Below are positions 30,660 through 47,199 of a DNA stretch of 64,000 bases, in pieces. The notes under the pieces were generated by a model that was not told the origin of the DNA, ran no database searches, and worked only from the letters and a program-made list of their open reading frames with translations. Each line of letters begins with the position of its first letter. The first letter of the stretch is position 1. The stretch comes from Urechis unicinctus (taxonomy: Eukaryota > Annelida > Polychaeta > Xenopneusta > Urechidae): NCBI GenBank assembly GCA_034190875.2, contig CM067344.1:19351612-19415611 (forward strand), given 5' to 3'. A program made the translations under genes and the position numbers.

Positions 30660-31138
30660 TCACCCTGATCCCTCGAAGTTGTATTGTCGATGTCTTCGGT
30701 ATTGATCAGCAAACTTGATCGGTATTTGATGTGCACGCGGTAAGTCATCCGATGATAGCGCTCGTGTAAAATGCGCATTGGATAACGACATCTGTCGCTG
30801 ATCGTCACAATTTTGATTTGACTTGTGTTCATCGTCTTCGTTGCCTGGTTTCATTACGCAGTGGAAGATGATCCAATCTATAAGTTCGACTAAACTTATA
30901 ATACTAGCCCCCAGTAGGAGTCCCATATATCCGCCAAAATCACCTGAAAGACGAAAATATAACCGGAATGTGACTTAATGGAAGTATTGACCTGGACACC
31001 ACGACAGGCAGTATGACATGTATAGCATGAATGCATAAGTACGCACTGAAAAACGCCAGTAAATCGTAACTCTTCTTCTGAACAACCTTCGTCAAACTCA
31101 TGTCGGTGTAATATATATCGAGCTGGAGGACATTGTCA
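30660..31138 (-). CDS. Channel exons: palm strand, selectivity filter, TM2 and tail
   Basis: Exon 31047-31138 encodes [20 protein letters not shown] ... SYDLLAFFS, the palm strand before TM2. Exon 30660-30943 encodes [20 protein letters not shown] then [11 protein letters not shown]. The G-G-x-x-GL-x-x-GAS-x-x-S-x-x-E sequence is the conserved pore entrance of DEG/ENaC channels, with the G-A-S filter intact. A cytoplasmic tail with acidic and basic stretches follows to the TGA at 30660. Confidence 0.93.
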
Positions 31139-46100: not shown

Positions 46101-47199
46101 CAAACTTGCCATGAATACATTTACAACCATCTACAACAGCGTATAATTGGTAGCTTTATTTACCGAATGGGTTCCAGCTGGATACACAGAGTGGAACAGA
46201 TTTCTTGCGTAACTTCCTTGTATGTCTTACTGAATATAGCGTCTCGCATATTGAAACAGAAGTTGGTTTGAACAACGAAGAAGTCGGAGCATTCGTCTTG
46301 TGGCCCTGCCAACCGAACAGATGGTGCGTTGTTCAATGTGTAAAATGGGGCTAAAATAAGTGGAGTTTTATGACATAAACTGTCATGGGTTTCTGTGATA
46401 TATCTTGCTGATTGTACAATAAGCACAGTCAGAAATGTTAATACTTAATTTAATCTGCAGTACATACCTTCAGACTGCTTGGATGAAGCCGCTTTGACGG
46501 AAGACACAAGAACATCATACAGCCCCGCCTCTACGACACTCGTCATTCTGATTCACACAGATTCAATCCTAATAATCCAATGGATCGCCAGAGTAAGCAC
46601 AGTGATAAGTATAGACCGTGTCTGTGTATGCTCACTTATAGGGGTTCATATTACAGACTGTGACTCGAGGGAATTTGATGGAATCTTCGTACGTTGACAC
46701 CATCTCAATCTGCGAATCATACTCGTAATACTCGGCCAACTTTTGTCCTATTGCGTAGGAAAATGCACTGATTGCAGCAAGCAGCACGATAATCCATGCC
46801 AACCTAATCGCAATCAACGAATCATTGGTTAGTGGTCCGCATTAGCACACATCATACTCGCAGTCATGGTTTCAACACATATTGGAACTTCAAAAGAATT
46901 TCAAATATTCATATGCACGATTTTCTTAAAATCCTTATCTTTTACTTACTATCAATTACTTGCTCATGAGGTAATGTGGCTATGGATTGAATAATCAGCG
47001 AAATCATTGAATCAAAACAAGCAATCGGATGGCTGTATGTTCAATGCTGTTAGCAGTTTTTATAATTTTAACAGATGAACATACTTCCTGCTGTTCAGTC
47101 CGCGTATTTCAGATATCTGCTTGATACCGTGCCAAGTAGTTTCTTGTCCAAATTTTTTCAGCTCTTTGGTGAACCGTGATTCCTTAACTTCAGTGCTAT
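30660..47199 (-). CDS. Giant modular DEG/ENaC-family ion channel (38 exons placed)
   Basis: One gene read exon by exon on the minus strand. Exons join in frame with GT-AG borders except as noted. Order: HG-motif N-terminus, TM1, PAN, MAM, kringle, LDLa, two nine-exon blocks (MAM, MAM split by CUB, MAM), proline-rich linker, channel ectodomain with conserved Cys, a long unrecognised region, palm strand, GAS filter and TM2, 88-residue tail. DEG/ENaC subunits are usually 500-700 residues and form trimeric sodium channels gated by acid, peptides, force or proteases; this one is about 2,650. Both membrane segments and all extracellular Cys framework pieces are present, so it looks functional. Ectodomain introns are nearly all phase 1. 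Open points: the start-codon exon is not fixed (a candidate lies at 47.6-47.7 kb), and the join from the linker exon (35499-35639) to the next exon is off by one base. Gene prediction could in principle have fused two genes, but TM1 and TM2 each occur once. Confidence 0.85.
31196..31468. repeat. (TA)n microsatellite in a channel intron
   Basis: About 270 bp of TA with ATATAAAT and CATATA interruptions, between channel exons 31047-31138 and 31536-31713. Tyrosine/isoleucine frames here are artefacts. Confidence 0.97.
31536..32069 (-). CDS. Channel exons: rest of the thumb expansion
   Basis: Exons 31907-32069 ([20 protein letters not shown] ... [19 protein letters not shown]) and 31536-31713 ([20 protein letters not shown] ... 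[17 protein letters not shown]). Both join in frame to their neighbours (phases 0, 1, 2). No known domain is recognised; composition is again helical. Confidence 0.72.
32215..33515 (-). CDS. Channel exon: 433-residue expansion in the thumb position
   Basis: One 1,301-bp exon, by far the longest of the gene, entering in phase 1 and leaving in phase 0. It starts with [20 protein letters not shown], the C-x-x-C ... Y segment that closes the DEG/ENaC cysteine framework. It then runs through long amphipathic, helix-rich sequence ([74 protein letters not shown]) with few Cys and several N-glycosylation sequons. I recognise no domain. With the next two exons (31907-32069 and 31536-31713) it puts about 545 residues where channels usually have under 100. 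Several helices look coiled-coil capable. Confidence 0.75.
33748..34028. repeat. (TA)n microsatellite in a channel intron
   Basis: About 60 uninterrupted TA units (33748-33866), then AT-rich sequence containing a near repeat of GGATTTACATGCATACATAT. It lies in the intron between exons 34172-34322 and 32215-33515. Confidence 0.97.
34172..35135 (-). CDS. Channel exons: DEG/ENaC finger, knuckle and cysteine framework
   Basis: Four exons: about 34964-35135, 34785-34867, 34491-34589 and 34172-34322. They give [12 protein letters not shown] ... GLCFVFN, then [28 protein letters not shown] ... [14 protein letters not shown], and [13 protein letters not shown] ... [12 protein letters not shown] ... 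CECGD. These correspond to the C-x-W/F-G-x-x-C, G-x-CY-x-FN, GL-x-L/V, PG-x-H-x-x-I and Y-x-x-x-x-C-x-x-x-C ... C-x-C steps of DEG/ENaC ectodomains. The second exon ends CTAAAG|GCTAGC, so its intron would be of the rare GC-AG type. Confidence 0.85.
35499..35639 (-). CDS. Channel exon: proline-rich basic linker
   Basis: Reads [20 protein letters not shown] then [20 protein letters not shown], ending DLQNDQ. The KRRHDR stretch is dibasic and could be a furin-type cleavage site, of interest because ENaC subunits are activated by proteolysis of the extracellular domain. Donor CCAAG|GTGAAC leaves phase 1, which does not match the best acceptor of the next exon, so a small exon or a one-base error lies in between. 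Confidence 0.55.
35855..38839 (-). CDS. Channel exons: nine-exon MAM/MAM[CUB]/MAM block, copy 2
   Basis: The same nine exons repeat in the same order and phases: 38705-38839, 38182-38565, 37900-38061, 37546-37724, 37238-37409, 36839-37045, 36521-36709, 36315-36425 and 35855-36199. Paired exons are clearly related (for example SQDCGFE in both first exons, MVVDG-x-SCLSF in both sixth exons, EYRMFT in both ninth exons) but differ at many residues. The tandem duplication is therefore old, not an assembly duplicate. The CUB again carries [12 protein letters not shown] and [11 protein letters not shown]. Confidence 0.82.
38946..42251 (-). CDS. Channel exons: nine-exon MAM/MAM[CUB]/MAM block, copy 1
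   Basis: Exons 42129-42251 and 41627-41998 form a MAM domain ([13 protein letters not shown] ... [20 protein letters not shown]). Exon 41326-41481 starts a second MAM ([14 protein letters not shown]). Exons 41035-41213 and 40653-40824 are a CUB domain ([18 protein letters not shown] ... [11 protein letters not shown]). Exons 40196-40402 and 39811-39999 then finish a MAM ([15 protein letters not shown] ... [12 protein letters not shown]). Exons 39468-39578 and 38946-39296 are a third MAM-like unit ([13 protein letters not shown] ... PGRYRLVI). The CUB therefore appears inserted into the second MAM. All nine introns but the one inside the CUB are phase 1. Confidence 0.8.
42357..42470 (-). CDS. 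Channel exon: LDL-receptor class A module
   Basis: A single 114-bp exon, phase 1 at both sides. It encodes [20 protein letters not shown] then [17 protein letters not shown]. All six Cys and the calcium-binding D-G-S-D-E are present, so the module should fold around calcium. Confidence 0.95.
42636..42878 (-). CDS. Channel exon: complete kringle domain
   Basis: A single exon with phase 1 at both sides. It reads C-R-R-T-W-K-G ... [19 protein letters not shown], then [20 protein letters not shown] and CDIPTCC. The kringle signature (S-T-S-x-S-G-x-x-C-x-x-W, CRNP ... PWC, C-D-I-P-x-C) is complete, with the Cys order expected for three disulfides. Kringles bind proteins or lysine-bearing ligands in proteases and in ROR receptors. 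I know of no standard DEG/ENaC channel with one. Confidence 0.92.
42994..43386 (-). other. 130-codon ORF within a channel intron, unassigned
   Basis: An open frame on the gene's strand inside the 1.8-kb intron between the MAM and kringle exons. It has an ATG start but no resemblance to a family I can name, and no splice signals that would join it to the gene in phase. It may be chance or a fragment of an unrelated insertion. Confidence 0.15.
44687..45494 (-). CDS. Channel exons: first MAM domain
   Basis: Exons 45363-45494, 44952-45151 and 44687-44873. [18 protein letters not shown] opens the domain. [38 protein letters not shown] and [12 protein letters not shown] give the middle and the closing strand (I/A-x-DDI). 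This is a full-length MAM domain, a jelly-roll adhesion module. It is followed by a 1.8-kb intron, the longest in this part of the gene, before the kringle. Confidence 0.85.
45775..46547 (-). CDS. Channel exons: short linker and PAN/apple-like domain
   Basis: Three exons (46468-46547, 46164-46350, 45775-45899). The first adds a linker. The second has [20 protein letters not shown] and [14 protein letters not shown], and the third continues [20 protein letters not shown] to YIRQRC. The order (two Cys in an early helix region, then C-x-F-x-YD-x-x-x-x-x-C) matches PAN/apple domains, which bind proteins or carbohydrate. The domain sits directly after TM1, where normal channels continue into the finger. 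Domain name moderately sure; exon joins are in phase. Confidence 0.65.
46636..46803 (-). CDS. Channel exon: TM1 and post-TM1 motif
   Basis: [20 protein letters not shown] is the first membrane helix, followed by [20 protein letters not shown] and [13 protein letters not shown]. The sequence FP-x-VTVCN-x-NPY is the most conserved signature of DEG/ENaC proteins at the start of the extracellular domain. Ends TATAA|GTGAGC in phase 2. Confidence 0.92.
47085..47199 (-). CDS. Channel exon: cytoplasmic N-terminus with HG gating motif
   Basis: Reads [20 protein letters not shown] then [18 protein letters not shown]. The T-x-HG-I pattern just before TM1 is the gating motif of DEG/ENaC channels. The donor AGGAA|GTATGT leaves phase 2, which joins exactly to the TM1 exon to give ...SRK-LAW. 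No Met lies in the exon, so an upstream exon carries the start. A frame from 47705 (MAKITPLFSF...) that ends GGACCGG|GTCGCG would join in phase but is only a guess. Confidence 0.85.

Follow-up and report, generated by a model that had tools for sequence, protein, structure and literature searches.

We analysed a stretch of 64,000 nucleotides from the annelid Urechis unicinctus (GenBank assembly GCA_034190875.2, contig CM067344.1, positions 19,351,612 to 19,415,611 of the forward strand; hereafter the window), which carries on its minus strand, from position 47199 to 30660, a gene for a putative ion-channel subunit of the DEG/ENaC superfamily with an ectodomain enlarged several-fold at two sites (inserts 1 and 2). 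The gene was rebuilt as 40 exons that keep 2662 residues open without an internal stop or frameshift, and a stop codon closes the model after exon 40, which encodes the second transmembrane segment (TM2). A preliminary description of this DNA had read the locus as an in-frame chain of 38 exons that encodes one DEG/ENaC channel whose ectodomain is giant and modular; the in-frame chain was recovered, but two further exons had to be counted, and the second insertion, at 33443-31536, was absent from that description. The features of the gene, in the order of its exons, are as follows (TM1, first transmembrane segment; ASC, the Pfam profile of the DEG/ENaC family).

47085..47199, minus strand: exon 1, N-terminus in the cytosol; its HG motif (TTWHGIKQI) aligns to ASIC1
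46636..46803, minus strand: exon 2, TM1 followed by the first extracellular strand (ASC 1-89; hydropathy 2.17 over 19 residues)
46468..46547, minus strand: exon 3, aligned to ASIC1 as far as LYH, the start of the finger; insert 1 follows
45775..46350, minus strand: exons 4-5, PAN/apple domain (PAN_1, E 5.2e-5, 23.4 bits, cut-off 21.4)
44687..45494, minus strand: exons 6-8, MAM domain (E 3.2e-12, profile 1-157 of 158)
42636..42878, minus strand: exon 9, kringle on a single phase 1-1 exon (Kringle, E 1.2e-12)
42357..42470, minus strand: exon 10, LDL receptor class A (LDLa) on a single phase 1-1 exon (Ldl_recept_a, E 1.1e-9)
38946..42251, minus strand: exons 11-19, block A, a MAM-like unit, a MAM-like unit with a CUB inside and a further MAM-like unit (CUB E 4.3e-18)
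35855..38839, minus strand: exons 20-28, block B, which repeats block A in tandem and shares its exon plan (CUB E 3.6e-20, MAM E 5.5e-9)
35499..35639, minus strand: exon 29, proline-rich linker with PKRRHDR, after which the channel resumes (QKEILEDL, aligned to KQLEILQD of ASIC1)
33632..35342, minus strand: exons 30-35, remaining finger, beta-ball and thumb (ASC 129-336)
34867-34785, minus strand: exon 32, with a GC donor at its end (splice model)
33711..34028, no strand: TA-rich microsatellite within intron 34/35, a possible assembly weak spot
33444..33527, minus strand: opening 28 residues of exon 36, with the last cysteines of the thumb (ASIC1 alignment)
31536..33443, minus strand: insert 2, the rest of exon 36 and all of exons 37-38, about 520 helix-prone residues that no Pfam family matches above cut-off
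31230..31468, no strand: TA-rich microsatellite within intron 38/39, a possible assembly weak spot
31047..31138, minus strand: exon 39, strand toward TM2 (ASC 398-454 jointly with exon 40)
30660..30943, minus strand: exon 40, TM2 with the GAS filter, C-terminal tail and stop (ASC 398-454, ASIC1 alignment)

In a Pfam scan of 10 protein segments at curated cut-offs, the ASC profile was matched by three collinear, non-overlapping pieces that cover 354 of its 455 positions, namely profile 1-89 within residues 1-120 (exons 1-3, E 2.6e-17), 129-336 within residues 1751-1986 (exons 29-35, E 1.7e-31) and 398-454 within residues 1987-2662 (exons 39-40, E 3.1e-16). The gaps left in the profile, 90-128 and 337-397, are the positions of inserts 1 and 2. 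As the pieces are complementary, they point to one channel split by two insertions, and on the sequence it is very probable that a single channel carries both. Only two strongly hydrophobic segments occur in the 2662 residues, with hydropathies of 2.17 (TM1) and 2.13 (TM2), the next (1.41) lying in block B; WHG before TM1 and LLLGAS in TM2 are both kept in alignment with ASIC1. The core contains 14 ectodomain cysteines, one before and 13 after insert 1; this is the number expected, since seven disulfides are common across the DEG/ENaC family (PMC6197857, excerpt). The single TM1 with HG, the single TM2 with GAS and the channel cysteine framework of the preliminary description are thus all present, as are its named features, on one strand and in the order and at the coordinates it had given, according to the Pfam matches and the rebuilt chain.

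With both inserts removed, the core matched solved structures of ASIC1 (E 8.1e-43), ASIC5 (1e-31), FaNaC (7.7e-25) and ENaC gamma (1.1e-22). The closest of these, ASIC1 (PDB 9e4a, 7rnn), shares TM1, finger, thumb, TM2, GAS and the cysteine pattern in the printed alignments, but is a chain of 531 residues without modules. FaNaC, also of the DEG/ENaC superfamily (PDB 7yvb, 8on7; E 7.7e-25 and 7.1e-15), matches the core more weakly than ASIC1, with chains of 679 and 600 residues that are far shorter than the gene product, and ENaC chains likewise match worse than ASIC1 (1.1e-22 at best).

Insert 1 is made up of exons 4-28 and comprises 1630 residues, or 4890 bases (divisible by 3), with phase 1 on entry and exit; such symmetric phase 1-1 boundaries are a mark of exon shuffling. 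It is located between ASIC1 residues 110 and 133 (numbering of 7rnn_D), in the finger, at or after helix alpha1. Helix alpha1 was placed by the SKN-XXX-H motif (PMC10507113, excerpt). Modules scoring above the Pfam cut-offs are PAN_1, Kringle, Ldl_recept_a, two CUBs and MAM in two of the seven MAM-like units, in agreement with the earlier placing of PAN, MAM, kringle and LDLa between TM1 and TM2; an EGF family match was absent from the 10 segments at E up to 1. The best solved matches of the kringle, among the matches listed, were HGF and plasminogen.

The same arrangement could be produced by two genes that are bridged in the exon chain only, one for a modular receptor and lying beside or inside the other, a fragmentary channel gene. 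In favour of this is the one long intron between MAM and kringle (1808 bases, all others being 78-489 bases), in which further exons were sought by the splice model only. Yet each half would be an incomplete channel, with ASC 1-89 on one side and 129-454 on the other, the one cysteine before and 13 after insert 1 add up to the family's 14, and the introns bounding insert 1 have just 117 and 215 bases. No second channel turned up elsewhere in the window (0 of 45 tblastn matches outside the gene, E up to 1), and the modelled exons show no signal-peptide-like segment ahead of the modules, the other hydrophobic stretch (1.41) being that of block B. The agreement of phases counts little here, being imposed by the method. 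We therefore consider two genes very improbable and a single subunit, as proposed in the preliminary description, to be supported by the complementary ASC pieces, the 1/13 split of the cysteines and the short flanking introns.

Exons 11-28 of insert 1 form blocks A and B. From the second exon of each block onwards, exon lengths (A/B) are 372/375, 156/162, 179/179, 172/172, 207/207, 189/189, 111/111 and 351/345, with identical phases; the length of 207 in block A (40402-40196) was preferred over an extended exon at 40567-40196, which was dropped, partly for its match with block B, and was also given by an unanchored run of the splice model. The blocks share 51% identity (313 of 615 residues), and nonsynonymous (dN) and synonymous (dS) divergences of 0.41 and 1.66 yield a dN/dS of about 0.25, averaged over the whole time since the duplication. 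Likeness was lowest at third codon positions (0.43), with 0.47-0.56 in the eight matching introns. Given this dN/dS and the third positions being least alike, selection has most likely maintained both blocks as protein. When the CUB was excised, its flanks matched MAM end to end (profile 1-158) with 16.4 bits in block A and 18.9 bits in block B, both below cut-off. The reading that best fits the sequence of each block would thus be a MAM-like unit, a MAM-like unit interrupted by CUB, and a third MAM-like unit; the two MAM/CUB blocks noted earlier stand, with their layout corrected in that each CUB appears to be nested in a MAM-like unit. The MAM-like units of block A score 23.6, 16.4 and 11.4 bits (cut-off 26.4), and the second and third of block B 18.9 and 15.3 bits. 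The CUB of block B keeps the acidic residues of the cubilin and neuropilin-2 CUBs in printed alignments, and that of block A does so by eye; such residues bind calcium and basic ligands.

The symmetry of insert 1 also allows for a different use of the gene, in which splicing decides, exons 4-28 being skipped as a cassette in most transcripts, so that the usual channel would have insert 2 alone, and the modular form being a special isoform. With 4890 bases and phase 1 at both ends, the removal of these exons would join exon 3 to exon 29 in frame. Skipping of 25 exons at once is rare, which counts against such a cassette, and selection on both blocks implies that the modules are in use; we regard it as decidedly unlikely that the modular product is the exception.

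Insert 2, the second enlargement of the single subunit, lies between the last thumb cysteines and GENILVLDI, the strand toward TM2 in the ASIC1 alignment. Where ASIC1 has its knuckle stretch, with the knuckle helix, the gene has this insert. Its 5' joint is sure, because a single open frame in exon 36 runs from the thumb cysteines into the insert, and the 3' joint spans the intron with a TA array. The insert contains five N-glycosylation sequons and has a Pro+Gly fraction of 0.063, versus 0.112 for insert 1. A single-sequence structure model of exon 36, discarded for its mean predicted local distance difference test score (pLDDT) of 33.8, placed 267 of 437 residues in helix and had no strands. 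Relatives were found neither in Pfam above cut-off nor in PDB, where the best E value was 0.58, to plant EDS1, which we treated as a chance match; a scan of viral contigs with exon 36 gave five pattern matches, none of which was confirmed.

For the splice structure as a whole, 38 of the 39 introns are GT-AG, and the remaining one, 3' of exon 32, has a GC donor. As the method requires GT-AG and matching phase, agreement in these respects is weak evidence alone, and the strong evidence comes from the profile matches. We inserted the GC donor by hand, since the residues on both sides of the joint agree with ASIC1; at window position 34785 (minus strand), either the intron is of the GC-AG type or the local sequence is in error. 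In unanchored runs, with a codon table trained on the gene region itself and hence biased in the gene's favour, the splice model scored 341 bits on the gene's strand (18.5 kb) versus 42 on the opposite strand, 8.5-29.8 bits on dinucleotide shuffles (10 of 10), and 51 (14.9 kb) and 16 bits (14.5 kb) on two shorter minus-strand stretches. An initial chain, from which the TM1 and TM2 exons were partly or wholly absent, was dropped, as were 5' exons at 48301-47496 and small exons at 44605-43267, considered false, and a form of exon 34 read through its own donor, the spliced form suiting the cysteine spacing better by eye. A pseudogene or an assembly artefact, to which the GC donor and the TA arrays in introns 34/35 and 38/39 might be ascribed, is extremely unlikely in view of 40 exons without a stop or frameshift and the block dN/dS of about 0.25.

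Whether the pore itself matters is a separate question, since the protein could be an adhesion or scavenger receptor in which the channel fold serves merely as membrane anchor and trimeriser. The size of insert 1 (1630 of 2662 residues) is in line with this, and so is the loss of the proton residues of ASICs, H73 and K211 being replaced by S and T; E238, an acid pocket residue of ASIC1, corresponds to G. In contrast, HG and GAS, the wrist residues Y71 and W287 and the acidic residues of TM2 are all kept in the ASIC1 alignment. Y71 and W287 form a hydrophobic bridge from wrist to thumb, and H73 and K211, nearly fully conserved in ASICs, are absent from other members; working channels without them are named, some of them still proton-responsive (PMC10507113, excerpt). 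On account of the lost proton residues the gene is filed here in the DEG/ENaC superfamily and not as an ASIC, while proton sensitivity may remain. A mere anchor therefore seems quite improbable, and a working channel rather than a dead pore is likely from the residues retained; the gene product would most likely be a working DEG/ENaC subunit of non-ASIC type, gated or tuned via its outer modules.

The preliminary description had stated that known DEG/ENaC subunits are without such modules, which is too broad, as a DEG/ENaC core already carries extracellular modules in EGAS-1 to -4 of Caenorhabditis elegans, named for EGF plus ASC; in a screen these subunits gave no currents that differed from those of water-injected controls (PMC10424705, excerpt). 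The EGAS modules are of the EGF type, for which the present gene has no Pfam match. No report of MAM, CUB, kringle or LDLa in a DEG/ENaC channel was found in the open-licence literature, and the terms kringle, EGF and insertion are absent from PMC9822975. A possible further parallel is offered by ENaC (PDB 6wth, 9blr). Its GRIP domain, at which proteolytic cleavage lifts inhibition, is extra sequence that sits between helices alpha1 and alpha2 of the finger (PMC6197857, excerpt), and the position of insert 1 fits this site; the gene has a basic cluster in the same region, but GRIP is a small strand domain compared with 1630 residues of modules. The cluster, PKRRHDR (residues 1776-1782), is part of a proline-rich stretch that separates insert 1 from the point where the finger resumes. 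By analogy, the position of insert 1 in the protease-sensing slot of ENaC may be taken as a structural argument for protease sensing by the gene product, one of the hypothetical roles, along with tethering and mechanical gating, that the preliminary description had put forward.

Neighbouring subunits build a collar from finger and knuckle (PMC6197857, excerpt); with insert 1 in the finger and insert 2 at the knuckle, both enlargements would therefore, judging from their positions, be situated at one intersubunit contact. The following mechanism can be envisaged. Three such subunits would form the pore; the PAN, MAM, kringle, LDLa and CUB modules would bind the matrix or a secreted partner and thereby put the finger under load or keep it in place; from the finger this would reach the pore by way of the thumb and the two conserved wrist residues, and insert 2 would replace the contact between finger and knuckle of neighbouring subunits. 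A protease cut at PKRRHDR might free the finger from the module array on one side, comparable to proteolysis at GRIP. We would give an even chance to this explanation as a whole, that is, to one DEG/ENaC-type cation-channel subunit with an ectodomain enlarged at two sites and working through its outer modules. Gating or tuning by an outside partner, as the module content suggests, appears equally plausible either way, and a protease step at the basic linker would be unlikely. The most specific version, in which an exon-shuffled finger array and a helical knuckle substitute set the open state of a standard pore through ligand or matrix binding, reversed by linker cleavage or cassette skipping, is tentative and rather doubtful.

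Several points weigh against this explanation. Ligand, load and cleavage are inferred only; the gene is known here from genomic sequence alone, and exons 4-28 could be skipped in frame. Model exon 1 has no ATG, and therefore at least one upstream coding exon carrying the start codon is absent from the model; the GC donor is needed at one intron, acceptor scores are weak at several exons (for example, -2.2 at exon 1 and -2.3 at exon 9), and the long TA arrays in two introns around insert 2 may be sites of assembly error. Five of the seven MAM-like units score 11.4-23.6 bits, below the cut-off of 26.4, and were named by position and block homology, and the first MAM is without a solved-structure match among the 60 of 79 matches listed. 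The dS of 1.66 between the blocks is near saturation, and with a pLDDT of 33.8 the model of exon 36 leaves insert 2 without a usable structure.

Elsewhere in the window, two hAT-like copies (14143-15637 and 25375-26917) lie in opposite orientation about 10 kb apart and are 97-98% complementary across arms of 261-585 bases. The plus-strand copy matches Dimer_Tnp_hAT (4e-21), and an open reading frame (ORF) just upstream of it (24899-25204) contains a BED finger (5.9e-5). Between the two copies, an ORF of 312 residues (22425-23360, minus strand) has a MADS match (SRF-TF, 4.2e-8) and ends in a cysteine cluster that looks PHD-like by eye. The chain of overlapping ORFs at 19068-22014 (plus strand), the first of which has 591 residues and no Pfam match and a later one a DUF6589 match below threshold (2.5e-4), is perhaps a mobile element, and a 278-residue ORF at 10918-11751 (minus strand), which zf-RVT matches below cut-off (1.1e-4), may be a remnant of a long interspersed nuclear element. 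A short-unit tandem repeat at 2952-3490, noted by eye in the ORF lists, reads without stops in several frames (HWYAVVYIDLLRMLTDW on one strand).

The opening of DEG/ENaC channels by outside partners, including the question of a tether in touch channels, has long been debated. A subunit that carries ready binding modules in its finger and has its knuckle rebuilt would be a natural experiment on which loops tolerate large cargo, and the gene could serve as a construct from which to remove cargo, load and protease site singly. It would also present exon shuffling at work inside an ion-channel domain, and not at its end only.

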